From Alcaligenes faecalis (lineage in GTDB: Bacteria > Pseudomonadota > Gammaproteobacteria > Burkholderiales > Burkholderiaceae_B), in NCBI RefSeq assembly GCF_009497775.1, contig NZ_CP031012.1, positions 1,860,001 through 1,924,000 on the forward strand: a stretch of 64,000 bases of DNA. Direction: 5' to 3'. The position numbers and the translations under genes are program-made. Below the pieces are notes generated by a model that searched no databases, was not told where the DNA came from, and saw nothing but the letters and a program-made list of their open reading frames with translations. Numbering within the stretch: the stretch's first letter is position 1; each line of letters opens with the position of its first letter. This document shows positions 34,359-48,785 of this stretch, piece after piece.

Positions 34359-34374
34359 GTCTTTCTACTTCCTC

Positions 34375-34599
34375 TTATTTATAGGAGTCGGGGTTGTTGC
34401 GCCAAGCAAGGATGTCCTCACCCTTCCAGGCTGTGCAGGCTCTGCTTACCAGCTTGGCGGCCGGCGCTTGTCCAGCAAGTACTCTTTTGCGCCAGGTTTC
34501 TCGACTAAACGGGATGCGGTCGGCGAACTCGTCCCACCGATATAGGCCTTCGGGATGGATGGTGGGGGCGCTTTTTTGAGAGGATTGGGTGCTATTCAT
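34375..34599 (-). CDS. AlpA/Xis-like helix-turn-helix protein
   Basis: 74 residues. The helix-turn-helix lies at GLYRWDEFADRIPFSRETWRKRVLAGQAPAAKL, followed by AWKGEDILAWRNNPDSY, the layout of AlpA-type excisionases. Next to int on the same strand and overlapping the methyltransferase stop by four bases, it is the likely excisionase or int regulator. Confidence 0.75.
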   Translation of the reverse strand: MNSTQSSQKSAPTIHPEGLYRWDEFADRIPFSRETWRKRVLAGQAPAAKLVSRACTAWKGEDILAWRNNPDSYK

Positions 34600-35069
34600 G
34601 ACTGTCCTTTCATGAAGGTGATCCAGTGGGTATCGGCGCGTTTGCCGCTGGGATGGCCGAACAAGGGCTTGTTTGGGGTCAGCTCAAGGATTTGGCGAGT
34701 GGGGATCTGGATCTCATTCCACTTGAAGATCAGCACACCCTCGGGCTTGAGGACGCGGAAGCATTCCGCAAAGCCACGGCGCAGATCGTCCTGCCAGTCG
34801 TCACTAAGGATTCCGTACTTGGCACGTAGCCAGGACTCCCGGCCAGCGTGACGCAGGTGAGGGGGATCGAAGCAGACAAGGCGAAAGCTCTCGTCAGGAA
34901 ACGGCATTGCCCGGAAGTCCATATTCAGATCGGGCGTGATGTTGAATGCCCGCCCATCGCAAAGCGTGTGGTTCTCGCTGCGGATGTCCCCGAATAGGGC
35001 GCGTTGGTCCTGGCGGTTGAACCACATCATGCGGCCACCACAGCAGGGATCTAGAACAAGCTGTGTCAT
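34596..35069 (-). CDS. Phage class I SAM-dependent methyltransferase-like protein
   Basis: 157 residues. It begins MTQLVLDPCCGGRMMWFNRQ (SAM-binding motif I) and has CFDPPHLRHAG, resembling the DPPY catalytic motif of amino-methyltransferases. Its C terminus (RVLKPEGVLIFKWNEIQI) is a typical Rossmann methyltransferase end. It is short and lacks a visible target-recognition domain. DNA is the probable substrate, with RNA or protein as alternatives. The ATG at 35069 has GGAG eight bases upstream. Divergent from the EVE/HNH nuclease 17 bases away, so the two might form a modification/restriction pair; this is a guess. Confidence 0.72.
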   Translation of the reverse strand: MTQLVLDPCCGGRMMWFNRQDQRALFGDIRSENHTLCDGRAFNITPDLNMDFRAMPFPDESFRLVCFDPPHLRHAGRESWLRAKYGILSDDWQDDLRRGFAECFRVLKPEGVLIFKWNEIQIPTRQILELTPNKPLFGHPSGKRADTHWITFMKGQS

Positions 35070-35086
35070 GTAAATAGCTCCTATAT

Positions 35087-36559
35087 ATGGACGCAAAAAA
35101 AAACTCACTAAGCGTTACACTTGGTGAGCTAAGTTCAATTATTAAAAGGGGTTTGGGCGTGACTGAATTTAATGCTTGGGTTTTTCAGGGGAACCCTAAT
35201 TTTTATGACTTAGAGAAGTACATACAGTCCTCTAGACAGATTTACTGGAATACTCCCAATCGCAATAGAGCAAAGATAGCTATTGGAGATCCTGTCATTA
35301 TTTGGCGTTCAACAATTGATCGAGGCGCTATCGCGGTCGGTTATGTGAATGAGCTTCCTACAAAAGCTGCTGAGGTTTTACATCCAGAGGTTCTAGGGAG
35401 GGAGTTTTGGGTGGAGCATGAGGTTGTTAAGGAAGAAGAGTGGAAAACAGGGATTCAATTAGCAGGTGACATCCGCGTGAGCTCTGCCCAGGGCATGGTC
35501 ACGCATGAACAGTTTATGCAGCATCCGCTGTTGCAAAAATCGCAAATCATACAAAATCCTAGGGGAACTATATTTAGGTTGTCCCAAACCGAGTTTCAGG
35601 CGTTTGAAAAGCTGTGGAGAAGCTCGTCATTCCTTAGGGATGCGTGTTCATTTTGGTGGGTCAATCACAAGCAAACCCGTCGTCAGGAAGTGGAAGGTGG
35701 ATATATCTGGAGCCCCACCTCTAAGAAGAATGGCGCTTTTAATCAGACCTATGAAAATCTCAGGCTTGTGCAACCTGGAGATATAGTTTTTTCCTATGCT
35801 GATGGCCAAATTAAGGCGATCGGTAGAGCGCAGGCGGGTTATGAGAACGCCCCTAAGCCGAGTGAGTTTGGTTCAGTAGGCGATGTATGGGACCAATCCG
35901 GATGGCGGGTCCCAATTGTCTGGGAAGAGCTGGAGAACCCAGTACGGCCAAAGTCACACTTAACGGCTATTGCCCCGTTACTACCAACGAAACATTCACC
36001 TATTCGTGCCGCGAATGGTGATGGGATTCAAAGCTGCTATTTGGCAGGTATTTCAGAGAGCCTGGGAAATCTTCTTCTTGAGTTAGCGGGTAGAGACTCT
36101 CTGTCTACTGGAGAGTCTGAAATTGAGTCGGAAGAAGATAGGCAAGTGCAGTTGGTTTTGGCATCGAACATTTCACAAACAGAAAAAGAGCAAATCGTTA
36201 AAGCGCGGCGAGGTCAGGGCTTGTTTAGACGAAGAGTGGCTCAGGTTGAGTCAGTCTGCAGGCTCACCGGTGTGTCGGATCCGAGATTCTTAGTGGCCAG
36301 TCATATCAAGCCTTGGCGTGTGTCAAATAATGAAGAGCGTCTGGCTGGACATAACGGCTTGCTGTTATCTCCGCATGTAGACCTATTGTTCGACAAGGGA
36401 TACATCTCTTTTAAGGATGATGGGGCCATGCTGGTTAGCCAACGAGCCGCGGCGGTTCTACGAGCTTGGCAATTGCCCTTAACGGAGAGCGCTCGGCCGT
36501 TCACTCCTGAACAGAAAGTGTTTCTTGAGTATCACCGTGGGCATATTTTCAAAGAGTAA
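35087..36559 (+). CDS. EVE-like domains fused to HNH nuclease, modification-dependent restriction candidate
   Basis: 490 residues. Residues about 27-165 look like an EVE/PUA-like reader (FNAWVFQGNPNFYDLEKYIQ, IGDPVIIWRS, RGAIAVGYVNELP). Residues about 185-290 look like a second one (SFWWVNHKQTRRQEVEGGYIW, LVQPGDIVFSYADGQIKAIG). Residues about 380-465 are an HNH_2 nuclease (GQGLFRRRVAQVESVCRLTG, VASHIKPWR, GHNGLLLSPHVDLLFDKGYI). EVE-HNH proteins are type IV restriction enzymes that cut DNA with modified bases. The codon use is more AT-rich than the core phage genes, suggesting separate acquisition. No good ribosome site is seen; the mRNA may be short-leadered. Confidence 0.8.
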   Translation: MDAKKNSLSVTLGELSSIIKRGLGVTEFNAWVFQGNPNFYDLEKYIQSSRQIYWNTPNRNRAKIAIGDPVIIWRSTIDRGAIAVGYVNELPTKAAEVLHPEVLGREFWVEHEVVKEEEWKTGIQLAGDIRVSSAQGMVTHEQFMQHPLLQKSQIIQNPRGTIFRLSQTEFQAFEKLWRSSSFLRDACSFWWVNHKQTRRQEVEGGYIWSPTSKKNGAFNQTYENLRLVQPGDIVFSYADGQIKAIGRAQAGYENAPKPSEFGSVGDVWDQSGWRVPIVWEELENPVRPKSHLTAIAPLLPTKHSPIRAANGDGIQSCYLAGISESLGNLLLELAGRDSLSTGESEIESEEDRQVQLVLASNISQTEKEQIVKARRGQGLFRRRVAQVESVCRLTGVSDPRFLVASHIKPWRVSNNEERLAGHNGLLLSPHVDLLFDKGYISFKDDGAMLVSQRAAAVLRAWQLPLTESARPFTPEQKVFLEYHRGHIFKE

Positions 36560-36644
36560 GCTCTTGTGTTTGTGGATTTATTATCTCCGTATCGATGGGC
36601 AATAAAAACTGTCTGGTGGTCATGGGTTGATCCTAGAAAAGAAA

Positions 36645-36673
36645 AACCCCGGTTGAGTAAATCAAGCGGGGTT
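36645..36673 (-). terminator. Leftward terminator, probably of the early left operon
   Basis: AACCCCGGTTGA (36645-36656) pairs with TCAAGCGGGGTT (36662-36673) with one internal mismatch; the minus-strand transcript continues into TTTTTCTTTT. No minus-strand gene ends beside it, so it likely stops read-through from rdgC across the plus-strand gene at 36790. Confidence 0.7.
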
Positions 36674-36789
36674 ATGGGGTGTTGCTGTAGTCGTGATGCG
36701 TCATAAGGGAGGCATCCTATGTTTTAGCCACAGAGGTTCAGCTATGATCCTTGCGGATATAGGCAATAGAAACCTTTTGGAGGTCATGG

Positions 36790-37542
36790 GTGAGCGAAAA
36801 AAAATGTAGCTGTGAAGGACAAATGATCGCTGCCCTGATTGCAGGGGCGGTCTTAATGCTCACGGTGGGGTTTGTGCTTGGGTGGGCGTGGGATAAGCGG
36901 CAGGGCGTGCTAAGTGACGTGAGCATTCTCGAGGTAATGACCGCTTTCGGCACAGTGGGAGCGGCAGTGGGGGCTGCCTGGTCTGTTTTTTACACTGTTA
37001 ATGAGAAGAGAAAGTCTCAGCGACATAAAGATAAAGTTTTAAAGATACAGTTAGATTCCAATTTTTTTGATTGGGATTTATTGGTAGAGACTGTTCATTG
37101 CTCTATAGAAGACTTACTTACTGACGGCTATGATAATCACCCTGAAAGCTTGAGATATAAAATTGCTGTTCTTGAAAGGGCTGTTGTCAGGATTCGTGAG
37201 TTGGAAGTTGTTTCGGTATCAGACGCCAGGCTCAGTACAGCGTCAGAGAAACTGTATTTAAATATCGTTAACTTGATCGAAGAGCAAACACGATTAAAAA
37301 ACTTTTGCGACAGAGATGGCTTATTTGCGTCGCACCCCGTTTACAATAAATGCATTAGTGGAAGAAGAATAGCTGTTATTTTGCAGGCTTTAGATGCTAT
37401 TAATTCACTTTTGCAATTGGTGAGAACTTCAAGGCCGGCCTCGTTGCAAAGAAAGGATAGGTTCGATGAACGTATCTTGGGTTTGCTTAGGAGCATCGAA
37501 AAGGATGGTGAACTGCCCTTAATTAGAGGACTTACTCTCTGA
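36790..37542 (+). CDS. Membrane protein of unknown function
   Basis: 250 residues. Two hydrophobic segments (IAALIAGAVLMLTVGFVLGWAW and AFGTVGAAVGAAWSVFYTV) near the N terminus are followed by about 180 mostly helical, charged residues that should be cytoplasmic. GTG start with GGAGGT six bases upstream. AT-rich compared with its neighbours, and antisense to the terminal part of the left operon (11-base overlap with rdgC). This is a typical moron pattern. I do not recognise the family; two-helix anchored proteins with a cytosolic domain occur among phage-exclusion effectors, but nothing specific is visible. Confidence 0.7.
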   Translation: MSEKKCSCEGQMIAALIAGAVLMLTVGFVLGWAWDKRQGVLSDVSILEVMTAFGTVGAAVGAAWSVFYTVNEKRKSQRHKDKVLKIQLDSNFFDWDLLVETVHCSIEDLLTDGYDNHPESLRYKIAVLERAVVRIRELEVVSVSDARLSTASEKLYLNIVNLIEEQTRLKNFCDRDGLFASHPVYNKCISGRRIAVILQALDAINSLLQLVRTSRPASLQRKDRFDERILGLLRSIEKDGELPLIRGLTL

Positions 37543-38434
37543 AGCGGTCTCCGCCCAACACTTCGACCAGGTCGCTGATCATCTTGGCTAGCTCGGAGGT
37601 CATCAAGGTCATGTCGGCATCAAAGATTTCGTCATCGTTGACGGCGGTCACGTCCTGTTTTTCCGTCAGGATGTCCAGCGGGGCCACGCGTTTGACGTCC
37701 AGCGCATCGGTCAGCACAAAGCTGATGCGATCCGCCCAGGTCATGGCCAAACGAGTGCATTGCTTGCCGGCTTCAACGTGCTTGCGCACTTCGTCAATGT
37801 CGGCGTTTTGCTTTACGTAGCGCACGGCAGCACCGCTGTCGCCCGTGGATCGCAGCTCAGTATCTTGGTCGATGGTGAAATTGGCGGGGGCGTCATCATC
37901 GACCAGCCAGCTCGTCATAGCGCCAGCGGGTGACCACTCGGTATACAGCGGCTGCACAGGGAAGGGGTCTACGCTCTTGGCCAGCAGGCCCAGCACTTCA
38001 TCACTCTTAGCCACGGCAGCGGTATCAATCACAAACCAGTGGTTTCGTGTGTCGATCCACACTAGAGTGTCGCGCTGTACGGCATGGGAGCGGGGCATCA
38101 AATCAATGATGATCTGCTCTTTGATTTCCTTCATCTGCTTGCGGCCGGGCTTGTAGCCTTGCTGCTCTTCGATTTCGCGCGCCTTCTCGCGGGCCGCTTG
38201 GTTAACCACAGCGCTGGGCAGCAGCTTCTTTTCAGCACGCATGCAGATCAGATACTGCCCGTTCACTTCATGCACCAGCTCACCACCTTCACGCGGCGGG
38301 ACCCAGCCCAGGCTGAGAGGCTCTTGGCTGCCGCCAGGGGCAAACTGATGCTTGGACAACATGTCGGCCAGTTGTTGAGCGGACAGGGCAAATGCCGTAT
38401 CCAAGCGAGAGATACGAAGGTTTTTAAACCACAT
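37532..38434 (-). CDS. rdgC: RdgC, recombination-associated protein
   Basis: 300 residues starting MWFKNLRISRLD and containing KLLPSAVVNQAAREKAREIEEQQGY and PRSHAVQRDTLVWIDTRNHWFVID, all family signatures. RdgC forms a ring on duplex DNA and restrains RecA. A phage copy may guard the phage's own annealing pathway from RecA or stabilise replication. It is the last gene of the leftward recombination operon. Confidence 0.95.
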   Translation of the reverse strand: MWFKNLRISRLDTAFALSAQQLADMLSKHQFAPGGSQEPLSLGWVPPREGGELVHEVNGQYLICMRAEKKLLPSAVVNQAAREKAREIEEQQGYKPGRKQMKEIKEQIIIDLMPRSHAVQRDTLVWIDTRNHWFVIDTAAVAKSDEVLGLLAKSVDPFPVQPLYTEWSPAGAMTSWLVDDDAPANFTIDQDTELRSTGDSGAAVRYVKQNADIDEVRKHVEAGKQCTRLAMTWADRISFVLTDALDVKRVAPLDILTEKQDVTAVNDDEIFDADMTLMTSELAKMISDLVEVLGGDRFRE

Positions 38435-38512
38435 CAGAGAATCTCCAGTGAGTGATATGCGATGGGGATAGGTATGATTTGAGACTGCTGAAAGCTCAAA
38501 TGTGAGGGTGAA

Positions 38513-38839
38513 ATGTCTATTAGTAAAAAAAGTGATCTTCTGCCTAAAGACCCGAAGCTAAGAAAACTACGAGTTCGTCTAGAACACTCAACATCTATGC
38601 GGGCCACCGTTAATGACAATGGTGGCGTTGAGGCGACAGTTAAGGCGGGAGAGGTACTTGGAGATGAGTCTATTAAGTACGAGATCAAAATCTCCGAAGT
38701 GGAGATTAGATCGTTAATACGTGACCTCTCCGCAATTGCTGATAGGGCTGAATTGCAGTCCGCCCTTAAGGACGTTGCACGTGAGTTGAGCAGGCTATCG
38801 GCTGCCGCTTGCGGTATTGCAGTGAAAAGCGACCGCTAA
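38513..38839 (+). CDS. Small protein of unknown function
   Basis: 108 residues, charged and helical, with a beta-rich middle (TMRATVNDNGGVEATVKAGEV). Good ribosome site GAGGGTG before ATG 38513. It runs against the left operon between rdgC and ssb, so it has its own promoter and may be a moron. Not recognised. Confidence 0.6.
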   Translation: MSISKKSDLLPKDPKLRKLRVRLEHSTSMRATVNDNGGVEATVKAGEVLGDESIKYEIKISEVEIRSLIRDLSAIADRAELQSALKDVARELSRLSAAACGIAVKSDR

Positions 38840-38929
38840 AACGGCTTTATTTTTCACTTATTGCCTGTAAAACCAATCTATTAAACAAACCTGATTATGA
38901 ATTACTTAACAATAATTACTTTATGTCAT

Positions 38930-39406
38930 TCAAAACGGAATATCGTCATCCATATCGGCTAAGTTGTCCGTCATGGGTGGACGTTGTTGCGGCTGCCCGC
39001 GCCCGGTGGCTTCCGCGTAGTTGTTGCGCTGCTGGCCTTGGGGTGGCGAGTTGGGTTGCTGCGCTTCCCCATCACGGCCACCCAGCATTTGCATTTGCTC
39101 GGCAATGATCTCGGTCGTGAAACGCTCCTGACCGTCCTGGCCTGTCCATTTACGGGTGCGCAGACGACCTTCTACATAAACGGGGCGGCCTTTGCGCAGG
39201 TACTCACCCGCGATTTCAGCCAGACGGTTGTAGAACACCACACGGTGCCATTCGGTTTCCTCGCGGCGCTCGCCGGAGGTACGGTCTTTCCACTGCGAAG
39301 TCGTGGCAATGGAAATATTGCAGATGGCCGAACCTTCCGCGCTGTAGCGTACTTCTGGGTCACGGCCAAGATTGCCCACCAGAATGACTTTGTTGACTGA
39401 GGCCAT
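38930..39406 (-). CDS. ssb: Single-stranded DNA-binding protein
   Basis: 158 residues. The OB fold ([47 protein letters not shown]) and the acidic tail [10 protein letters not shown], which docks partner proteins, are intact. A Gln/Pro/Gly-rich linker joins them. It starts directly after the yqaJ stop (TAAATG), so it is part of the ERF/exonuclease/SSB recombination set. Confidence 0.97.
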
Positions 39407-40042
39407 TTATGCGGCCTCCAGCAGGGCGTCCCGCAGTTCGTGTTGATACTTGGTAACTGTCCGCTCGAACTCCATCAGATCGGATTCCAGCGAATCGATC
39501 TGGTTGTCGTCGCGCTCGATGCGGATGATCTTCATGCAGCCCAGGTCGTGAACCCACAAGACCAGATCCACCCACTTGCGGCCGAGCAACCACATTGCGC
39601 CATTGCACTGGTCTACATAGGCTGAAATATCGCCGTTCACAAACGCGGTGAACAGCGTATCGCTGCTGACCATCGTCTTAATTTCAATGATCCCGTCCTG
39701 GCCAACCAAGCCGTCCACGCTGACCCCAAACAGGCGGTCAGGCGTCGTGATGAAACCAGCCTCGTCAACGATATGGCCGGTTTTGCGCTCATAAACGGCG
39801 CGGGCGTATGGCTCTTGTTCGGTTCCCAGGCGCATGGCACCGTTCACAAAGACTTGCATGGGTTCACCGCCTTCGCGCTCTCGGGCTACGTCCATGGCGT
39901 AGTCCAAACATCTCTTGGATGGAGCGCCGCTTTTCAGGCAGTCGCGGCAGTCTTTGAAACGGCTGCCGGTGATGACGCCCTTACGGGCCTGGAGCCATTC
40001 TGGGGTGCCCTGTTCGGCTGTGTGAATGATTAAGCCTTCCAT
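39407..40042 (-). CDS. YqaJ-type viral recombinase exonuclease
   Basis: 211 residues. The nuclease core shows WLQARKGVITGSRFKDC, GTEQEPYARAVYERKTG, and the PD-(D/E)XK residues in GVSVDGLVGQDGIIEIKTM. It chews 5' ends to give 3' single strands for the ERF annealase, as lambda Exo does for Beta. ATG 40042 shares its A with the erf stop (TAATG), so the two are coupled. Confidence 0.92.
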   Translation of the reverse strand: MEGLIIHTAEQGTPEWLQARKGVITGSRFKDCRDCLKSGAPSKRCLDYAMDVAREREGGEPMQVFVNGAMRLGTEQEPYARAVYERKTGHIVDEAGFITTPDRLFGVSVDGLVGQDGIIEIKTMVSSDTLFTAFVNGDISAYVDQCNGAMWLLGRKWVDLVLWVHDLGCMKIIRIERDDNQIDSLESDLMEFERTVTKYQHELRDALLEAA

Positions 40043-40779
40043 TATTGAGCCTCCGTAAGCATTTTTTTCTTGTCCGATACGGCCTTTTTGAAGGCGTTGT
40101 AGTCGGCAAGGTTGTTGGTTGCGTAGATGATGTTGCCGCCTTCCTGCCAGATGGTTTCTAGCTGTTCCAGTGTTTCGGCTTTGGCTACTTCGCTGACCCA
40201 TGAATCTTTCAGAGCAGGATCTGCTGGGGCGCGGCCATCGGTGTCATCGTCCTGCTCGGACAAGCCGGTAATGGCCTTCAAGGTGTATCGCTCCAAGTAG
40301 GTCTTGGTGCTGGCGCGTGACTGAATAGCGTTGCGTCCTGGTCCGGTATCTGGTGGCCCGCCCATGCTCACACTTTCTTGGTGGCCGCCAACGTGCCGCA
40401 GGTAGCAAGTGACCTCCATCCAGTCCTTGTCATCCTTGGTCAGCTTCCAACTGGAAGAAAGCCCGTGCTTGGATAGGGCAGGGGTGACTGCATTCACAAC
40501 GTCATGCAGCTCGGCGTACTTCTGATTCTTAAGTGGGCCATCGGAACGAGCCTTGCCCTTGATGATCGTGACTGACTCGGCTTTGAATGCAGCGAACGCC
40601 TCGTCGTAGGCTTTTTTGGCCTGGGTGGCGTTATAGCGATCCTGCAGGTCCATCATTTGCCCGATCTGCTCAGGGCTCATGCCAGACTGCAGGGCTGCAA
40701 TTGCCATGGCCATTGGCGAACCTGCCGGGGCCGGTGCTGCGACAGCAGCCTGTGGAGCTTCAATGATTTCTGTGCTCAT
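40042..40779 (-). CDS. erf: ERF family single-strand annealing protein
   Basis: 245 residues. The ERF domain (residues about 50-190) contains AAFKAESVTIIKGK, YAELHDVVNAVTPALSKHGLSSSW and the end GRNAIQSRASTKTYLERYTLKAITGL. ERF proteins promote annealing and circularisation of phage DNA. It is coupled to the YqaJ exonuclease. Confidence 0.93.
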   Translation of the reverse strand: MSTEIIEAPQAAVAAPAPAGSPMAMAIAALQSGMSPEQIGQMMDLQDRYNATQAKKAYDEAFAAFKAESVTIIKGKARSDGPLKNQKYAELHDVVNAVTPALSKHGLSSSWKLTKDDKDWMEVTCYLRHVGGHQESVSMGGPPDTGPGRNAIQSRASTKTYLERYTLKAITGLSEQDDDTDGRAPADPALKDSWVSEVAKAETLEQLETIWQEGGNIIYATNNLADYNAFKKAVSDKKKMLTEAQ

Positions 40780-40786
40780 AGTGTCC

Positions 40787-41854
40787 TCAATATTGGATTC
40801 GGATAGCCGGAATCAGCCCCTTGGCGATCAGAATGACGGCTTGCTTGGCGCACTCGTCAGGCATACCGTTTTCGATGAATGCAGCTAGGGCGGCGTTGTT
40901 GATGCTGGCCTTGTGTGTGATATCGGCCTCGCGTTTCTGCTGCGCTGCCTCTGCTGCTGCCTTTTCGTCAGCTTGGCGCTTTATTTCTGCCTGGCGGGCG
41001 GCTTCGGCTGCATCCTTGGCGCGTTGCTCTGCGGCCAGCTTTTCAGCTTCGGCACGGGCCTCGGCCTGCTTCTGGCGTTCGATGGCTTCGGTCCGTTCCC
41101 GCTCAGCCTGTTCTGCGGCGGCTTTTGCATCGGCTTCACGCTTGGCGGCGGCATCGCGTTCAGCCTGGGCCTTGGTTTCGGCGTCGGCTCGGGCTTTGTC
41201 CGCGGCTTGGCGGGCGATCTCGGCCTCGCGGTCTTTCTGTTCCTGCTCGGCCTGCTTGCGGCGCAGCTCAGCCAGTTCTGCCTGCTCAGCTTCGTACCTC
41301 TGGCGCTCAGACAGGGCTGCGCTCAGGATTTCCAGCGCTTTGGCTTTGACCCGGTGAGCCTCGGCCTCAAACTCTTCCCAAGACTCGCCAATTACCTCGG
41401 CCTCTACCGATTTGATGCGCAGGCGAAGTGCGTCCGAATTAAGAGCTCCAACCTCTCGCGCTTGAGACGCCATGCTCTCCAAGCCGTTCCTGTGCATTGC
41501 TATCCGGTTGGCCTCTGCTTCCTCCCATTCCGTCAACGGCTTGCGGACCTCGTCGCGTAGCGAGTCCATCTTGGCGTTCCAGTCCCTGCGCTGTGCGTCG
41601 ATCTGTTTCGGCACTTCTTTGTATTTCGCCGACAGCGCGGCACCCATCTTTTCAACAGCCGTCTTTGTACGCGTTACCTTGTAGGCGTCAGCGGCGCAGG
41701 CTTCACGGTCCTTGCGGATCTTCATGTCGTACACCGTGCCGCTGACCTTCTCGCGCACCTGTTCGACATAGTGATCCAAGCCGCCAGGTGTGGTGAATGT
41801 TGCCAGTGCCGTGTCTTCCGATGGCAGCTCAATCAGTTCTGTGGATTCGGTCAT
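40787..41854 (-). CDS. Coiled-coil protein of the phage recombination operon
   Basis: 355 residues. Residues about 180-315 are a long Ala/Glu/Arg/Lys coiled coil (repeats like AAAKREADAKAAAEQAERERTE). The N-terminal 170 residues (ALATFTTPGGLDHYVEQVREKV, RTKTAVEKMGAALSAKYKEVPK) resemble a DUF1351-like phage protein. It could organise the recombination complex. ATG 41854 with GGAG six bases upstream. Function not assigned. Confidence 0.78.
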   Translation of the reverse strand: MTESTELIELPSEDTALATFTTPGGLDHYVEQVREKVSGTVYDMKIRKDREACAADAYKVTRTKTAVEKMGAALSAKYKEVPKQIDAQRRDWNAKMDSLRDEVRKPLTEWEEAEANRIAMHRNGLESMASQAREVGALNSDALRLRIKSVEAEVIGESWEEFEAEAHRVKAKALEILSAALSERQRYEAEQAELAELRRKQAEQEQKDREAEIARQAADKARADAETKAQAERDAAAKREADAKAAAEQAERERTEAIERQKQAEARAEAEKLAAEQRAKDAAEAARQAEIKRQADEKAAAEAAQQKREADITHKASINNAALAAFIENGMPDECAKQAVILIAKGLIPAIRIQY

Positions 41855-41855
41855 G

Positions 41856-42041
41856 TCATGCTCCAATCGCTCGGACCGCCAGAGTCGGGCCGAAAAAAAG
41901 CAGTCCGCAGACTGCTATGGCAATGATTAGGGTTAGGGACCAGCCCCAGGGCGGGGTGCTGCTATTGGGTGCGTAGCATCCCCGTCCGTCGAATTGATTG
42001 CGGCGGCGAGTGCGGGGGAAGCCGGGGTTTGGGTCTGTCAC
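41856..42041 (-). CDS. Small single-pass membrane protein
   Basis: 61 residues with one C-terminal membrane helix (LTLIIAIAVCGLLFFGPTL). GTG start with GGAGG five bases before it; its first four bases overlap the stop of the preceding 33-codon gene. The tight packing and strong ribosome site support a real gene. Role unknown. Confidence 0.65.
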   Translation of the reverse strand: MTDPNPGFPRTRRRNQFDGRGCYAPNSSTPPWGWSLTLIIAIAVCGLLFFGPTLAVRAIGA

Positions 42042-42139
42042 GGCTGCCTCCAGATACTAAGAACGCCCTCAATTCCGAGCGCAATAAAGAAAGCGGCGCA
42101 GCAAAAGAACACCGCGAAGATGAAAAACTCGATCAGCAC
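42038..42139 (-). CDS. Tiny hydrophobic protein, 33 residues
   Basis: The product is almost wholly membrane-like (FFIFAVFFCCAAFFIALGI). It starts with GTG at 42139, seven bases before the end of the upstream gene, with GGAGG at a good distance, and its stop overlaps the next GTG (GTGA). Both overlaps suggest translational coupling. Found by reading the gap; no family is known to me. Confidence 0.5.
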   Translation of the reverse strand: MLIEFFIFAVFFCCAAFFIALGIEGVLSIWRQP

Positions 42140-42492
42140 GGCAGCGCCTCCAGTTCTTGCCGGGTCATGCAGTTATGCGTGGTGTCTGCCCAGTCGCCGA
42201 TGATTCGTTCGCGTTCGGTGCGCAGGGTAGGGCGCAGGCTTTCATCATCTAGCGCAGCAAGCAGCTTGGAGCAATAGTCGAAACCTGCCGAGCTGGACGC
42301 CAGAAGCGAGTTCTCCATTTCTTCGATCAGCCCTATGCGGCTTACCTTTTGAGGAATCGATTGCAGGGTCCAGGCGATGTTTACGTACAGCGTTTTGCCA
42401 TACAGGCAGTTGCGGATCTGCTCCGCGATATAGGCGCGGCGGCGCTCCGCCAGCTCGTAAGTGCGTACTTCGCGCTCTGCGATAGCGTTCAT
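42133..42492 (-). CDS. Hypothetical phage protein
   Basis: 119 residues, helical and charged (AEREVRTYELAERRRAYIAEQIRN). ATG 42492 with GGAG six bases upstream. It lies in the left operon after a perfect 20-bp palindrome at 42569. Not recognised. Confidence 0.7.
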   Translation of the reverse strand: MNAIAEREVRTYELAERRRAYIAEQIRNCLYGKTLYVNIAWTLQSIPQKVSRIGLIEEMENSLLASSSAGFDYCSKLLAALDDESLRPTLRTERERIIGDWADTTHNCMTRQELEALPC

Positions 42493-42568
42493 GGTTAGCT
42501 CCGGGGGGATTGCGCCGCGTCCGGCGCTTGAGAATAGGAAGAGGGTTAGCCTGCGTCTGCCGCCGTCA

Positions 42569-42588
42569 CTGCATTTGCGCAAATGCAG
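42569..42588. promoter_or_regulatory. Perfect 20-bp palindrome in the left operon
   Basis: CTGCATTTGCGCAAATGCAG is fully self-complementary and lies between the genes at 42492 and 42729. The length and symmetry suggest a protein binding site or a strong hairpin in the transcript. The 236-base interval 42493-42728 has no other feature I can support. Confidence 0.6.
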
Positions 42589-42728
42589 GTATTGGCGGGT
42601 TCCGGGGTTCTATGCCCTCTAGTCGCAGCACTCCCGACCGCCCATGGCGTGGGCGGGTTTGATATCGAATTGGTTAAGGGAGTGGGAATGCTGCGGCTGG
42701 AGGGTGCCCCTCATAAGAAGGGCTGGGA

Positions 42729-43043
42729 TCACCACCATGCAGAAGCTTGCTTTTTTGCACGGATCAGATCGTCTTCGGTAAGGTGAGTGAACCCTCCATG
42801 CTTTTTGTCTAAGTCGCTACCTACCGCCCAAGCTTTAAGCATGTGGCTTTTGCTGCACCCTCTGTAATCAATGGCTGGGTTTAAGCAACTGAAAACCTGC
42901 GCTGTTCTGTGTGCAGTGATTCCCTTAAGGTGACGATTGAAAATTTCTGTTCGCTCCTTAATCCCGGCCCCTGCTTTCTCTTGCTTGTCATGCTTGCCAG
43001 GAAAGTCGCTGGGCCAGCACATTGGTTTGTCCTGCTGTTGCAT
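42729..43043 (-). CDS. First gene of the left operon, N-position protein of unknown function
   Basis: 104 residues, basic, with KERTEIFNRHLKGITAHRTAQVF and a C-terminal LTEDDLIRAKKQASAWW. AGGAG six bases before ATG 43043. It occupies the place of lambda N, just after a boxA/boxB-like leader, but a clear arginine-rich boxB-binding helix at the N terminus is missing. It could be an antiterminator or an unrelated early protein. Confidence 0.65.
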   Translation of the reverse strand: MQQQDKPMCWPSDFPGKHDKQEKAGAGIKERTEIFNRHLKGITAHRTAQVFSCLNPAIDYRGCSKSHMLKAWAVGSDLDKKHGGFTHLTEDDLIRAKKQASAWW

Positions 43044-43221: not shown

Positions 43222-43274
43222 GTGCGCGTTCGCACCATTGGCCTGTTTATCGCTTTGCTCGTTGTTAAAGATCA
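43222..43274 (-). promoter_or_regulatory. nut-like boxA and boxB in the left leader
   Basis: On the minus strand TGATCTTTAACA (43263-43274) differs from the rrn boxA consensus TGCTCTTTAACA at one base. About 27 bases further along the transcript, GTGCG-AACG-CGCAC (43222-43235) is a 5-bp hairpin of boxB size. The pair lies about 70-145 bases after the left operators, as in nutL. No gene lies in 43044-43341. Confidence 0.55.
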
Positions 43275-43341: not shown

Positions 43342-43410
43342 AACTCACATATGAGTTGATAAGCGAATAATAAACCCATATTTGGGCTGTTGTCAACCCT
43401 GATATGGGTT
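43342..43410. promoter_or_regulatory. Left operator array and promoter (OL/PL)
   Basis: Three 16-bp sites: AACTCA-CATA-TGAGTT (43342-43357), AACCCA-TATT-TGGGCT (43373-43388) and AACCCT-GATA-TGGGTT (43395-43410). Between and under them is a leftward promoter: TTGACA (plus-strand 43391-43396) and TATTAT (43367-43372), spacer 18. Same sites occur at 48496-48565 beside cI and cro. Confidence 0.85.
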
Positions 43411-43424
43411 ATTGGTTGGTTTTA

Positions 43425-43664
43425 TTATCCGGCGAGGCGGATCTGATCTAGGAGGTCGATAGCAAATTCTGATGAGGCTAGCAGCGCAAGCAGGGCGTCA
43501 CGCTGCTCGGAGCGGGAGAGCTCCATAAAGCCGGAAAAATTTGCTGCGGTGATGAGGCGGATCTGGGCATGCACTTGGCGCATGGAATCACCTAAGGCCG
43601 CAACATCCTGTGAGGACGGTTGAGGCGGTGGCTGCGGAGGATCTTGGCTGGTATTACTCGTCAT
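43425..43664 (-). CDS. LexA-controlled small protein, candidate antirepressor
   Basis: 79 residues. The N terminus is Pro-rich (QDPPQPPPQPSSQD); the rest is amphipathic helix (AALGDSMRQVHAQIRLITAA, RDALLALLASSEFAIDLLDQIRL), suited to protein-protein contact. Its promoter region carries a near-perfect LexA box at 43766-43785, and it ends 15 bases before the left operators. In coliphage 186 (Tum) and Gifsy phages, small LexA-controlled proteins inactivate repressors that cannot cleave themselves. Since the repressor here has no cleavage domain, this gene is the best candidate for such a role. The start ATG 43664 has a weak GAGAAGAG ribosome site. No homologue is recognised by name. Confidence 0.7.
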   Translation of the reverse strand: MTSNTSQDPPQPPPQPSSQDVAALGDSMRQVHAQIRLITAANFSGFMELSRSEQRDALLALLASSEFAIDLLDQIRLAG

Positions 43665-43765
43665 ATCGCAATGCTCTTCTCTTACAAGTGGGCGTTTTAG
43701 ATACGCGCTCTGATTCGTGGGAGCTACGTGGAGCGCGTCAATATGGCGGGGCAGGGGGATATTAA

Positions 43766-43785
43766 TACTGTATATCTGCACAGTA
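43766..43785. promoter_or_regulatory. LexA (SOS) box
   Basis: TACTGTATATCTGCACAGTA contains CTGT-N8-ACAG and matches the enterobacterial consensus TACTGTATATATATACAGTA at 17 of 20 bases. It overlaps a leftward promoter with TTGACC just upstream (minus strand), pointing to the 79-residue gene. It is also 127 bases before the plus-strand protease gene, so that gene is an alternative target. Confidence 0.85.
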
Positions 43786-43911
43786 TTTTTGGTCAAGGTA
43801 ATGTGGCTGACTATGGGGTCTGGGCGTGATTTGATGCGCTGACTGGGTACGGCCTAGATGGCTCAATCTGGTAGCATCCAGATTTTGATTGTTACTTAGA
43901 GGAAGTATGGG

Positions 43912-45030
43912 ATGAGCAGGTATGCCACTTGCATGTTTCTATGGCTTTTTATGTTGAGCGGGGATGTTGCGGCGACCTCCCGGGCCGCAATGGCCTTCAG
44001 CACATTTAACCCTTGTGTAGGAAATGCGTCGTTTTGCGGTACTCGTATTTTAGCGAGTGGAGTAATAGAAGCCGATAGCTATAGAAAGTTGGCAAACTTT
44101 ATTGCAACATCGAAGGACGTGCCACCTGTGCCAACCATTGTTTTCGACAGCCCTGGAGGTAGTGTTTCGGGGGCCTTGGCTATGGGGCGATTGATCCGTA
44201 GTAGGGGTTATGACACTGCGTTAGAGAAGGATTATCAAGAAGAGCTATTGTTTAACGAAGGTATGCGGGACATCGCTTTAAATACTGTGTGTGTATCTGC
44301 TTGTTCTCTAGCTTTTCTTGGTGGGAAAAACCGTTTAGTAGGTCGTGATGCTCGTTATGGCGTACATCAATTTTATTCCAAGGATAGTGGTGCTGGGGAG
44401 GCTGCAGCGCAAGTGACGATGACTGCTTTGGCGCTCTATTTAGAAGAAATGGGGGTTAGTCGACGTCTACTTGATTTGTCATCTTTGGTGGCACCAGAGG
44501 GGGTGCTTTGGCTGACGAGTGACGAAATGCGAGTATTGAGAGTAGATAACTCAGAACCTGAGTTGAGTACGTGGCGTATTGATGTAGATGAGGCTGGTGA
44601 GCCTGTGTTAAATGTTACGCAAAAGGTGGATGCAGACCGCGAACTTTTTTTGTCGTTAAGTAATACAAAAGGCGGAGTGCTGCTTGTAGTTGTAGTGAAC
44701 ATTACTCTTGGTGAGTCTGCTGAAGACCGAACACCTATGTTCCCTGTAGGGGAGCGTCTGGATGTTTCTTTTAGCAATAAGGAGTGGCGGACGATTGCAA
44801 AGCCCACCTCTTTGGTGAGTTGGAGGAGGGCAGGCACTCCAATGGACAAGACGAAATCGTTCGTTGGCGCAGCTTTAATGACACACGACAATTTATTGAG
44901 GGTCTCTGCTAATCCTCTCGTAAGATTTGATGTTGGTTTTCCGAATGTTATACGGGACTTGAGTGCCACTACTATGCTATCGACGGAAGGGTTACGGAAT
45001 GGCGTGGGTTTGTTGGCACGGATGCGTTAA
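43912..45030 (+). CDS. Exported ClpP/SppA-like serine protease, prophage cargo
   Basis: 372 residues. A signal peptide (MFLWLFMLSGDVAATS) is followed by a ClpP/crotonase-fold domain at about 50-200: VFDSPGGSVSGALAMGRLIRS, the nucleophile elbow VCVSACSLAFLGGKNRLVG and RYGVHQFY with the likely catalytic His. The C-terminal half (about 210-372) is beta-rich and unknown. The family includes periplasmic or envelope proteins encoded in many prophages. GAGGAAG precedes ATG 43912. Codon use is AT-rich. It may be a lysogenic conversion factor. Confidence 0.78.
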   Translation: MSRYATCMFLWLFMLSGDVAATSRAAMAFSTFNPCVGNASFCGTRILASGVIEADSYRKLANFIATSKDVPPVPTIVFDSPGGSVSGALAMGRLIRSRGYDTALEKDYQEELLFNEGMRDIALNTVCVSACSLAFLGGKNRLVGRDARYGVHQFYSKDSGAGEAAAQVTMTALALYLEEMGVSRRLLDLSSLVAPEGVLWLTSDEMRVLRVDNSEPELSTWRIDVDEAGEPVLNVTQKVDADRELFLSLSNTKGGVLLVVVVNITLGESAEDRTPMFPVGERLDVSFSNKEWRTIAKPTSLVSWRRAGTPMDKTKSFVGAALMTHDNLLRVSANPLVRFDVGFPNVIRDLSATTMLSTEGLRNGVGLLARMR

Positions 45031-45183
45031 AAAGCAAGAGTAGCTCCTAACATCAAAATCACGGGAGGGGCTTTAGTGTGTGGGGGGCATTACAAAAAAA
45101 GCCTAAGTAACAGGCCCCATGAAAAGGCCTTGTTCTCTTAATCTGGTACGATTTTGTCTTTATTCGTTACTTGGGAGAGGGGT

Positions 45184-45582
45184 GTGTATAAACAGACATC
45201 CGGCGCAATGGGAATGATGGCCCTGCTTTTCGCATTATTTACCGTTATCGCTGCTACTGTTGCTATCTACACTTACGGGAAAATTGCCATCGTAGAGCCA
45301 GGCCTATATGGGCTTTCCTCGTCTGTTAAGACAGTGACTAATTGGCCTCTGATTATTTCTTGCGTTTCTGCGGGGTTTTATTCAATAGCGTTTGCCGCTT
45401 TGTTTATGTATGTAGAAACAACTAGAAATGCAGTTGCCAAGATAGCTAATCATCTTGGAATCAAGGAAGAAGAGCCAGGTAACGCCCAATCAACAAGCCA
45501 GGCTGCTGATGAGCAAGAACAACCAAGTGTCAGCGTGACCCCATCGAAGGGGAACATTAGGCGGGGACAGCGATCTGTATGA
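45184..45582 (+). CDS. Small two-helix membrane protein
   Basis: 132 residues. Two membrane helices (MMALLFALFTVIAATVAIYTYG and WPLIISCVSAGFYSIAFAALFMYVE) and a charged, disordered C-terminal tail. GTG start at 45184 with GGGAG six bases upstream is preferred. It follows the protease gene on the same strand with a 153-base gap. Not recognised; it might act with the protease or as an exclusion protein. Confidence 0.6.
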   Translation: MYKQTSGAMGMMALLFALFTVIAATVAIYTYGKIAIVEPGLYGLSSSVKTVTNWPLIISCVSAGFYSIAFAALFMYVETTRNAVAKIANHLGIKEEEPGNAQSTSQAADEQEQPSVSVTPSKGNIRRGQRSV

Positions 45583-45607
45583 CGCAACGCCTATAGCAGA
45601 CAACAAA

Positions 45608-45627
45608 AAAGCCCCGGGAGGGGCTTT
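45608..45627 (-). terminator. Terminator of the membrane protein gene at 45661
   Basis: AAAGCCCC-GGGA-GGGGCTTT; on the minus strand it continues into a T6 run. It lies 33 bases after the stop at 45661. Confidence 0.88.
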
Positions 45628-45660
45628 GATTCCTAGGATCCGTAAAAATTCCTTAGCGGT

Positions 45661-46641
45661 CTAAAACAATTTTTTTTGCTGCACATGGTCTGCAATTGTT
45701 GAAGGAGGATCGTAGGTCGTGTTCGCTATAAACGGCTTGATTGCCTGTGCGGGCTGGGTAGAATCTCCCATGCTTTTTATCACGATATTTGCGGGAATCA
45801 TCCTTGACTCATCGTGAGGGTCTGCTTTGTACAGAATGCTGATGTTTGCATAAGTAGCTCCCTTTAAGCTGGAGGTATTTATATGCGGATATAGGGTTAC
45901 AGCTAAGCGTTTGTCGAATCCAGCCGCGAGAGCTGACCATCCCTTACTTCGATAGTCTAAGTCCGTAGCCCTTATATCAAGGAGCACATTTTGATAGTCG
46001 ATTTCTTGACGGGTATCCAGCGGAGGGGGAGATAAAGGAACTTCAGCGATCGCAGCAGCCGGGATCACTATTGGAGCCGCTCCATCTCCAAAGGTAATTG
46101 ATGTCGATGAATCTGGCCTGGCTGGGGCTAATAAATCAAGGCTTGATTTGTACAGTCCTGGATTCTCTTTGATTGTATTTTCAATGATTTCTTTGACATC
46201 CACTTCGCTCAGGCCCGAGATATCTCGTCCAGCAGTGATGATGACACTATTCGCAGCCTCTATCTTTGTAGTGGGCTGATCTGTGCCTACCGCCATTTTA
46301 TAAGCCGTAACAGCGACAAAGGCTGCGAGCGCAAAATCGATTAGTTTCACAAGTTTTGGATGTTTTTGGCCAAATTGGTAGATGAAAGCATCTCTTTCTT
46401 CATCATTCCGAAATCTGAGTCTGGTCCAGAAGCGTATAAGTTCGCTGCCGGTTTCAACTGCTTCGAGTCGGAATTGAATGCCGTCTAAATTCAGATTTAG
46501 AAGCTGGTTGATGGCGGGCGGGAGAGCCTTTAAAGCGCCCTCTAGACCTTTGAGTGATCGTATTACATCTTTGAGAGCTACTGGGTCAGCACAGTCATAG
46601 TAAATGATATTGGGCTGCTCAAGATTATAGGTAATGCTCAT
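45661..46641 (-). CDS. Membrane-anchored protein of unknown family in the immunity region
   Basis: 326 residues. The N-terminal 100 residues are soluble (VALKDVIRSLKGLEGALKALP, FWTRLRFRNDEERDAFIYQ), then one membrane helix (FALAAFVAVTAYKMAVG) and a C-terminal beta-rich domain (RLAVTLYPHINTS, YANISILYKADPHDES) that would lie on the other side of the membrane or in the cytosol. It is leftward, downstream of the nuclease gene and cI, as rexB is in lambda, but a terminator separates it from the nuclease. AT-rich codon use. Function unknown; an exclusion role is a hypothesis. Confidence 0.7.
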   Translation of the reverse strand: MSITYNLEQPNIIYYDCADPVALKDVIRSLKGLEGALKALPPAINQLLNLNLDGIQFRLEAVETGSELIRFWTRLRFRNDEERDAFIYQFGQKHPKLVKLIDFALAAFVAVTAYKMAVGTDQPTTKIEAANSVIITAGRDISGLSEVDVKEIIENTIKENPGLYKSSLDLLAPARPDSSTSITFGDGAAPIVIPAAAIAEVPLSPPPLDTRQEIDYQNVLLDIRATDLDYRSKGWSALAAGFDKRLAVTLYPHINTSSLKGATYANISILYKADPHDESRMIPANIVIKSMGDSTQPAQAIKPFIANTTYDPPSTIADHVQQKKLF

Positions 46642-46688
46642 AGGAAAGATACGCTCTGCATCTGTTAGTTGCTTCGTAGTTAAAAAAT

Positions 46689-46708
46689 AAGGAGCCAAAT
46701 GGCTCCTT
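46689..46708 (-). terminator. Terminator of the nuclease gene
   Basis: AAGGAGCC-AAAT-GGCTCCTT, followed on the minus strand by TTATTTTTTA. It lies 68 bases after the nuclease stop at 46777. Confidence 0.88.
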
Positions 46709-46776
46709 GTCTCTTCCTGCTCAGTCCTTCTTACGTACAGCCTCCCTGGGCTGGGTAACGATTATGGAGCCCATGC

Positions 46777-47949
46777 TCACTCTTCCTCTGACTCGACCCT
46801 ACGAGAGGAGCGACGGAAGTTCTCGTCATTTTGGCAGTACATCAAGGCGTCTCGTAAGATGCCAGCGAGTCGGTACAGGTCTTCCGGCTTGTTCAAGATG
46901 ATCCGACCATTTTTGCCAATCTCTAACCCGGCTCGTTGAGCTTCCATATTGTGGATTTCGGTCATTGGCTCAATGAACTGAATCGCGGGGCGTCGCTTGT
47001 CACCCCAGAAGCGGAAGAGCCATCTATTCGATTTCCCACCAGAAATCACAGAGAAGTATGTCTCAGTGTCTCGCATGGACAAATCTTCGCCTGGAAGAAT
47101 TTCTTGGCAGATCTGGTAGAGCTTCTGTTCTTCTGGTGTCGTGATTATCTTTTCGTTATCAGGGTCAATGATTGGTGCATCTTCGTCGGATAGTACGACC
47201 ACTGGCGGCGCTTCCTCGGTTTTCTGCGGCCGTGAAAGGCTGGTGGCGACCATTGAGCTTACTGATTGAGCTACTGCTTGAACCACCAAGGGCTGAATGC
47301 TTTCTAGGAATCGCGCATTAAGCTGTCGTTGGATGGATGCTCGTGTCGCAACATAGCGCACAAAATCCACATCGCATTCGCGCAGGGAGGATGTGATGGC
47401 CTCTCGGAATGATGACAGGTAGATATTCTCTTCCGCCATAGCGCGTAGAGCGCCTGCCTCCAGCTTATCGTGATGGAAACGGAACAACTGCTCCGCAGCA
47501 TCTTCCTGTGGAGCCTCAAAGTCGACAGTTAAGAATGGATCTTTGTCCATTATGTTTCTGTTGACTAGGTCGGTGAAAAACCGCCATTCCCTGCCGTTTG
47601 TTATTGCAGCAACCGCCACCTCTGGCGTCGCGTTGTAGTACCTGGATAGTTGAGGGCAGTGGTTCGTCAGGTCTTGGGCGTATGCCTTGGCTTCAATAAA
47701 AAGCACAGGCGTCCCATTACTGAATAGCGCGTAATCAACACGCTCAGTGGCTTTCACTCCGGGGAAGTCAGAACCGTACTCTGCTTGAACTTTAGTTGGA
47801 TCGTAGGGACTGAAGCCAAGAATATCCAGCATTGGGAGGATCAAGGCTTGCTTGGTCGTCTCCTCCGAAATGCAGTGGGCACCAACTTTGTTCACATGCT
47901 CGATGTGTGAACTAACTCGCTGTATAAACCGTTCCATTGCCTCACTCAC
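46777..47949 (-). CDS. Type IV restriction-like nuclease (COG2810 / HSDR_N-type PD-(D/E)XK)
   Basis: 390 residues. The N terminus has the HsdR-like core: SEETTKQALILPMLDILGFSP, then RVDYALFSNGTPVLFIEAKAY with the D...EAK catalytic residues, and NGREWRFFTDL. The C-terminal part (RWLFRFWGDKRRPAIQFIEP) resembles the COG2810 partner domain. No helicase or methyltransferase is attached. It is read leftward after cI, the position of rexA in lambda, so it is probably expressed in the lysogen and could cut incoming phage DNA. GTG 47949 or ATG 47937 may be the start. Confidence 0.78.
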   Translation of the reverse strand: MSEAMERFIQRVSSHIEHVNKVGAHCISEETTKQALILPMLDILGFSPYDPTKVQAEYGSDFPGVKATERVDYALFSNGTPVLFIEAKAYAQDLTNHCPQLSRYYNATPEVAVAAITNGREWRFFTDLVNRNIMDKDPFLTVDFEAPQEDAAEQLFRFHHDKLEAGALRAMAEENIYLSSFREAITSSLRECDVDFVRYVATRASIQRQLNARFLESIQPLVVQAVAQSVSSMVATSLSRPQKTEEAPPVVVLSDEDAPIIDPDNEKIITTPEEQKLYQICQEILPGEDLSMRDTETYFSVISGGKSNRWLFRFWGDKRRPAIQFIEPMTEIHNMEAQRAGLEIGKNGRIILNKPEDLYRLAGILRDALMYCQNDENFRRSSRRVESEEE

Positions 47950-48082
47950 AAAACAATAATATTTAAAATTTCTGGTTACTTTACAGATAAAAAATATGGG
48001 GCCGTATAGACCCCATATCCCTCTATTCGGTTAGAACCCAACAATCAACTCAGTAACTTGGCCAGCGTGGCGTTTCATCGTT

Positions 48083-48523
48083 TCAACCTTCGTCCTTCTT
48101 TACATCCAGGCCGAGCTGGGCGGCAGTAAGCAGGATTGCGCCCTCAATCTTTGAAAGTTGATCCTTGCTTAGGTGGCCGAGCTTACTGATATCCACATCC
48201 TCAAAATTCAAGGTTGGATGTTCATTGCTTTCGTTTGCCAGTCTGGGCGGTTTTCGCACATCTAGATTTTGTGTGAAGAGCTGCCAGACCTCGACGCCGA
48301 ATGTCTTGGCGACACCATCCAACTTATCTATTCCCACCGATACTGAACCGGCTTTATCGACGTTTCTCAGGCGATCGAAGGTTGATCTGCTCACGCGGCC
48401 TTGGGAGGCTTTCTGCGCGGCCTCGTTAGACGAGTGAACGCCGCCACGCCCGATTAGGCGATTCATATTGGCGGCAAGGGTCACAAGGGCGTCATCACTC
48501 ATATCTGAGTATTTTCTCAGCAT
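48083..48523 (-). CDS. cI: CI-like repressor without a self-cleavage domain
   Basis: 146 residues from ATG 48523 (139 from ATG 48502, which has a better promoter fit). The helix-turn-helix spans LAANMNRLIGRGGVHSSNEA to VSRSTFDRLRNVDKAGSVSVG, then LDGVAKTFGVEVWQLF as in many phage repressors. The C-terminal 65 residues are a charged linker and one helix (LSKDQLSKIEGAILLTAAQLG). The Ser-Lys peptidase domain and cleavage site that make lambda CI SOS-sensitive are absent. Operators on both sides suggest it represses PL and PR and tunes its own promoter (TTGTTA-17-TAACTA). Confidence 0.82.
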   Translation of the reverse strand: MLRKYSDMSDDALVTLAANMNRLIGRGGVHSSNEAAQKASQGRVSRSTFDRLRNVDKAGSVSVGIDKLDGVAKTFGVEVWQLFTQNLDVRKPPRLANESNEHPTLNFEDVDISKLGHLSKDQLSKIEGAILLTAAQLGLDVKKDEG

Positions 48524-48570
48524 AGTTAACCCTTGTGTGGGTTGATAACAACCCAGATATGAGTCATAAT
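48496..48570. promoter_or_regulatory. Right operator array and divergent promoters (OR, PR, PRM)
   Basis: Sites: ACTCA-TATC-TGAGT (within 48496-48511), AACCCT-TGTG-TGGGTT (48528-48543) and AACCCA-GATA-TGAGTC (48550-48565), the same motif as the left array. The rightward promoter is TTGATA (48542-48547), 17 bases, CATAAT (48565-48570), which places transcription start at or next to the cro ATG. Confidence 0.8.
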
Positions 48571-48575
48571 TGGAC

Positions 48576-48785
48576 ATGGACTCTATTAATTTCCTCTCAG
48601 ATGTGCGTCTCAAGCTACGGGCTGAGGCCTATCGGAACCTGCCTCACGTTGCGCGTGAGTCAGGCGTTCCGGAAAGCACTATCAAAAAGATTCGCTCCGG
48701 TGAGGTTCAGGACCCGCGAGTTAGCACCATTCAGGCGCTGTATGAGTATTTCTGCCGCCCCAAAAAGGAGCGCGCAAATGTGTGA
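48576..48785 (+). CDS. cro: Cro-like repressor
   Basis: 69 residues from ATG 48576, with a helix-turn-helix at LPHVARESGVPESTIKKIRSGEVQDPRVSTIQALYEYF. It is divergent from cI across the right operators and is the first rightward gene. The predicted promoter leaves almost no leader, so translation may be leaderless. It probably binds the same 16-bp sites. Confidence 0.82.
   Translation: MDSINFLSDVRLKLRAEAYRNLPHVARESGVPESTIKKIRSGEVQDPRVSTIQALYEYFCRPKKERANV

Follow-up and report, generated by a model that had tools for sequence, protein, structure and literature searches.

The logic of an SOS-controlled antirepressor acting on a phage repressor is already known from Tum of coliphage 186, AntC of N15, the Gifsy phages, and SPC32H. 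In Lemire 2011 (PMC3121763), the antirepressors GfoA, GftA, and GfhA of Gifsy-1, -2, and -3 act on the short repressors GfoR, GtgR, and GfhR. AntC is cited as an SOS-regulated antirepressor in the same paper and in PMC10432266. We analyzed a 64,000-nucleotide stretch of Alcaligenes faecalis DNA (contig NZ_CP031012.1, positions 1,860,001 to 1,924,000; this whole stretch is the window), in which a 79-codon gene lies between a LexA (SOS) box and the left operators of a phage repressor, CI. The coupling of this apparently SOS-controlled gene to a repressor without a self-cleavage domain is well supported, and the layout was present in all six phages compared. The reading that we favor, with a probability of approximately 0.75, is that DNA damage frees the LexA-controlled promoter of a lambda-like prophage and that the small protein then inactivates a CI that cannot cleave itself.

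The Gifsy systems resemble this locus in their short repressor without a cleavage domain (136 residues there, 139 here), in a small protein under a LexA box, and in the SOS logic. However, the Gifsy gene, as described in PMC3121763, shares an operon with a dinI homologue outside the immunity region, whereas the small gene of the window sits within that region, right beside the left operators and directed across them. Tum of 186 (U32222) is likewise a LexA-controlled antirepressor, and its annotated LexA site was recovered by our box scan. It differs in its 146 residues with a DinI-like half (PMC3121763) and in the position of its gene, approximately 6 kb from CI in record U32222. The initial annotation had likened the locus to 186 Tum and Gifsy. 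The shared logic stood; as regards ancestry, Tum gave no profile match to the small-protein family (hhalign probability 0.1%). SPC32H (KC911856, as annotated) has an 86-residue Ant with a LexA-like box just upstream; Ant also gave no profile match to the family (hhalign probability 0.6%). Its repressor Rep differs from CI, with 198 residues and a weak alignment (hhalign probability 16.5%), and ant lies approximately 14 kb from rep. The N15 stretch held two LexA-like sites with four mismatches and no gene named antC. In the TF-smORF modules of Vibrio and Aeromonas prophages, a small orphan protein disables the cI of its own phage (Silpe 2023, PMC10432266). However, phage transcription factors turn these modules on without involvement of SOS, and DNA damage still leads to cleavage of the cI of phage 72. 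What appears to be new here, with Gifsy and N15 compared by description, is the family of the small protein and the site of its gene, which sits in the immunity region and is directed across the left operators into the left operon. Among the matches listed, the titles and abstract openings of open-licence papers on antirepressors and on phages of Alcaligenes, Allopusillimonas, Burkholderia, Bordetella, and Achromobacter did not describe the module.

Control of the small gene by the SOS response is well supported by its promoter region (Table 1). A search of the window for LexA boxes with up to three mismatches returned one site, against 0.00 expected in shuffled sequences; the bare pattern CTGT-N8-ACAG was not significant on its own (1 in the window and 0.93 expected). 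The whole 4.16-Mb genome contained five sites at this threshold, including that of the window, and a backward-read control contained none. Three of the four other sites adjoin lexA, recA, and imuA, each identified over the NCBIfam cut-off. The remaining one (L040, G000:C1:1415696-1415715) is a LexA box with two mismatches and no obvious gene adjoining it. The box of the window overlaps the spacer and -10 element of the promoter aimed at the 79-codon gene. The initial annotation had placed it on this promoter, and this was confirmed. The same annotation had set the gene next to the left operators, which it abuts; the box itself lies beside the gene, approximately 355 bp from the operators and not on them.

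Table 1. Features of the immunity region and left operon in the window (positions counted from the first letter of the window).
Feature	Position	Strand	Remarks
LexA (SOS) box TACTGTATATCTGCACAGTA	43766..43785		3 mismatches to the 20-base consensus
SOS promoter, TTGACC-18-TACAGT	43767..43796	minus	9/12 consensus bases; aimed at the 79-codon gene
79-codon gene, candidate antirepressor	43425..43664	minus	ATG at 43664, stop at 43425; inside a longer open reading frame
Left operator 1 AACCCTGATATGGGTT	43395..43410		0 mismatches; spacing conserved
Left operator 2 AACCCATATTTGGGCT	43373..43388		1 mismatch; spacing conserved
Left operator 3 AACTCACATATGAGTT	43342..43357		2 mismatches, alone at chance level in the window; spacing conserved
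Left promoter (PL), TTGACA-18-TATTAT	43367..43396	minus	11/12; overlapped by operators 1 and 2
boxA-like motif CTTTAACA, left leader	43263..43270	minus	only copy in the window
Left operon, including Erf-like annealing protein, single-stranded DNA-binding protein, recombination exonuclease, integrase	33138..43043	minus	PHROG matches; probable extent, from gene direction
Repressor CI, helix-turn-helix-type N-terminal part and short tail	48083..48502	minus	139 residues; start by alignment with relatives
Degenerate site overlapping the CI start, possibly a third right operator	48496..48511		read by eye, unscored
Right operator AACCCTTGTGTGGGTT	48528..48543		0 mismatches
Right operator AACCCAGATATGAGTC	48550..48565		2 mismatches
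Cro-like repressor	48576..48785	plus	69 residues; phrog_9425, E 9e-17, scanned from 48570

The initial annotation had described the repressor as 48083-48523 without a peptidase domain. The lack of a peptidase match was confirmed, but the start is probably 48502 and not 48523, the open reading frame (ORF) opening at the equivalent Met in two related phages, L083 and L086. The CI ORF extends further upstream in the other three relatives, for which the equivalent Met was chosen as the start. With these starts, CI is 129-142 residues long across the six phages. The CI of the window matched nothing in Pfam at E 1 and no S24 or other peptidase family in either Pfam or NCBIfam, and the CIs of all six phages likewise lacked any such peptidase match in these databases (NCBIfam only for L086). 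Its helix-turn-helix identity is deduced through its relatives, since only homologues carry such matches (weak in two from the same bacterial family and over the cut-off in one). The tail of the CI from the Allopusillimonas provirus weakly matched NCBIfam DicA (E 0.0025, far below the cut-off), whereas the CI of the window did not match DicA, nor did those of L082, L083, L086, and L089 at E 0.01. Inactivation of CI by RecA-dependent proteolysis despite the missing S24 domain would follow the general rule for lambda-type repressors, beyond which we found nothing in its favor. Given the length of these CIs, their lack of a peptidase match, and the precedent of the 136-residue Gifsy repressor, which is not cleaved (PMC3121763), we regard this route as very improbable.

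The layout was compared among six distinct phages, namely, the window, a provirus of Allopusillimonas, L082, L083, L086, and L089, with the relatives found by scans for the operator pattern and with a CI alignment. A long operator-promoter pattern with up to three mismatches was present in two of 268 genomes of the bacterial family: that of the window and G072, which we take as Allopusillimonas ginsengisoli KCTC 22046. The latter was the first relative found. It carries a homologue of the small gene (34% identity, E 4.8e-5) approximately 2.6 kb from a CI homologue (61%). A shorter operator pattern matched five stretches in viral contigs (L082, L083, L084, L085, and L086). L085 was taken as the Allopusillimonas provirus, of which L046 is a copy. 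The CI-alignment scan returned five loci and added only L089. Two operator-pattern matches, L084 and L091 (the only addition of a second pattern scan), were dropped because they lack this immunity. An order-wide search of 399 genomes with a two-row CI alignment revealed no other CI at E 1e-5.

All six phages combine a short CI with a gene of 67-80 codons that abuts or overlaps the left operators and always faces PL. The distance from the stop codon to the first left operator is 10-14 bp in five phages, whereas in L089 gene and operator overlap. An intact CTGT-N8-ACAG box precedes the small gene in five of the six, and a CTGG variant does so in L089; the boxes have three mismatches in four phages, six in L086, and five in L089. 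By comparison, approximately 496 kb of other loci, counted with overlaps and without the loci of the family, the loci already known as SOS-controlled, or a duplicate provirus, contained no LexA box with up to six mismatches. The same scan recovered both positive controls: the annotated LexA site at 186 tum, with two mismatches, and one immediately upstream of SPC32H ant, with three.

The operators have the form AACYC-N6-GRGTT and were scored against AACCC-N6-GGGTT. Only two perfect sites occur in the window, at 43395 and 48528. The weaker operators were recognized by their conserved spacing, since the window contains 29 operator-like sites with two mismatches. The left operators are spaced by 22 and 31 bp in four phages and by 21 and 31 bp in L089; only two were matched in L086. 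A similar PL-like promoter is present in the other phages of this immunity.

The initial annotation could not assign the 79-residue protein to a named family, and neither could we. It had no match in Pfam or NCBIfam, DinI included, and only two weak matches in PHROG, both to unnamed families. The predicted structure has three helices (residues 18-38, 40-48, and 51-78) after a low-confidence, proline-rich start; the model was made from a two-sequence alignment and has a mean predicted local distance difference test score (pLDDT) of 82.6 and a predicted template modeling score of 0.61. Besides the first Met, seven residues were invariant in an alignment of five members (D20, H32, I38, F43, Q54, L58, and S65); the sixth, from L089, was added later and deviates at some of these positions. 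No relative was found when genome contigs and viral contigs were scanned with the single protein, when viral contigs were searched with a two-row alignment, or by tblastn with the window form against phages and plasmids and with the Allopusillimonas and L086 forms against phages. The order-wide search of the same 399 genomes, from a larger group, yielded weak matches only. A search across the bacterial family gave one real homologue and 12 other weak matches, five of which were inspected and dropped: G072:C4, G199, and G088 are antisense to genes that, in our reading, resemble UbiG methyltransferases, while the matches in G119 and G001 overlap larger ORFs that are unrelated.

The small protein may have another target at the time of the SOS response, such as RecA through DinI-like modulation, cell division, or a host regulator, with CI being lost in some other way. 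LexA-controlled phage operons do hold such genes: half of Tum is DinI-like, and the dinI homologue is first in the Gifsy operon (PMC3121763). Distant relatives of the small protein also occur in three other genomes of the family (L094-L097 in G158, G160, and G162; best E 2.3e-5). Two of them, L094 and L095, adjoin a gene that we read as a Lon-type ATPase, and no LexA box was found in the 3 kb analyzed. However, no DinI or other Pfam or NCBIfam match was obtained, the place of the gene at the left operators is constant within one immunity type, and its divergence parallels that of CI. We therefore consider another target to be unlikely.

The favored reading, inactivation of CI by the small protein, is supported indirectly by synteny, by the persistence of both genes, and by divergence that parallels CI. 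The interval from CI to the box spans 1.1 to 4.3 kb in the six phages. In blastp, its ORFs of at least 50 residues were not similar from one phage to another (lowest E 0.027), and its DNA shared short nucleotide matches only (22-39 nt). Since the interval ORFs are dissimilar, CI and the small gene appear to have been kept together while the DNA between them differs. Over the pairwise identities of the six phages, the small protein correlated with the CI tail at r 0.77 (5 of 720 label permutations), with the N-terminal part of CI at r 0.42 (36 of 720), and with Cro at r 0.26 (161 of 720). This is clearest for L082, whose tail and small protein, within the first set of five phages, most resemble those of the window (44% and 41%, respectively), whereas its Cro is nearest to that of L083 (82%) and 49% identical to that of the window.

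Several observations weigh against this reading or limit it. The covariation was calculated from only six phages. The correlation between the tail and the small protein depends on the alignment: one and the same five-phage set gave 0.91 in one alignment and 0.75 (5 of 120) in another. Cro, too, is correlated with the CI tail (r 0.57; 26 of 720). In the five-phage set, the N-terminal part of CI correlates with the small protein at r 0.77 (1 of 120); because it does equally well there, the tail is not singled out. The link of the small protein to CI as a whole is firmer than that to the CI tail. Structural searches did not assist: the AlphaFold2 model of CI, built from two sequences, was unusable (pLDDT 41.6), a fold search with the small-protein model returned no solved structure at E 0.001 or better, and a sequence search against solved structures returned nothing convincing. 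Of the six boxes, one is degenerate and a second carries six mismatches. Moreover, none of 11 loci with more distant CI homologues had a box at up to seven mismatches, and the coupling of box and CI therefore belongs to this immunity type.

From the box, promoter, operators, and repressor, we infer the following course of events. In the lysogen, host LexA would sit on the promoter of the small gene, and CI would occupy the left and right operators alike. Once the DNA is damaged, RecA would trigger the self-cleavage of LexA, the promoter would fire, and the 79-residue protein would be made. This protein would then inactivate CI by direct contact, perhaps via the CI tail, upon which PL and the right promoter (PR) would open.

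As the initial annotation had proposed, the SOS transcript probably also crosses the left operators into the left operon. The small gene of the window stops 14 bp before left operator 1 and is oriented into PL, and, apart from the operator palindrome of the window, no sense-strand terminator was predicted between the small-gene stop and PL in the six phages. Weak terminator candidates were noted at two places: one precedes the small gene in L083, and the other lies approximately 375 nt past it in L082. A boxA-like motif is present in the left leader of four of the six phages (the window, the Allopusillimonas provirus [L029 near 12079], L082, and L086), and none was found in the searched stretches of L083 and L089; its presence hints at antitermination in the left operon. 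Two leaders from each of two phages were also folded as RNA, with no strong signal (z 0.17 to -1.91). A terminator-free path together with the boxA leader makes an effect of read-through in cis plausible.

Read-through might even act alone, the SOS transcript driving the left operon past CI with the small ORF as an incidental passenger. This would agree with a gene that ends so close to the operator in five phages, overlaps it in the sixth, and faces PL in all of them, with no predicted terminator on the way. However, the protein is conserved across the six phages (25-45% identity) and its divergence tracks CI, which is not expected of a leader, and read-through alone would keep PR and replication repressed. 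We regard it as distinctly unlikely. An antirepressor acting on CI may instead be combined with read-through. In such a two-pronged switch, the LexA promoter would yield an antirepressor of a new family in trans and send polymerase through the operators into a boxA-bearing left operon, displacing or bypassing CI in cis. The antirepressor would diverge together with CI, perhaps chiefly with its tail, as a specificity pair swapped independently of Cro. We propose this full scheme tentatively, and it may well not hold in all its parts.

Other features in and near the immunity region were also noted. A motif of approximately 30 nt (TTTAGTTTGATGTG with flanks) occurs in the cargo DNA that separates CI from the small gene in four of the six phages, the cargo genes of which are dissimilar (minus strand; L029 at about 9309, L082 at about 7760, L083 at about 3145, and L086 at about 7540). 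It was not found in the cargo region of the window or L089, and is possibly a shared start signal for cargo genes. The cargo gene at 46777-47937 of the window (minus strand) has an HSDR_N/phage endonuclease match and a weak PADLOC match to PDC-S26, and is a possible defence gene within the immunity region. Near the integrase, 35087-36559 (plus strand) encodes a 490-residue protein with a C-terminal HNH/type II restriction-like PADLOC match; in NCBIfam, this protein weakly matches a phosphorothioate-DNA restriction enzyme.

If our reading is correct, SOS-controlled antirepressors would gain a family that is not detectably related to Tum or SPC32H Ant and whose known carriers include phages of the window's bacterial family. 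This would support several independent origins of the pairing of a non-cleavable repressor with an SOS-made inhibitor. The fixed placement of the gene at the left operators makes a second, cis-acting route of induction directly testable. Moreover, the six diverged repressor-inhibitor pairs are a ready set for studying how specificity evolves.

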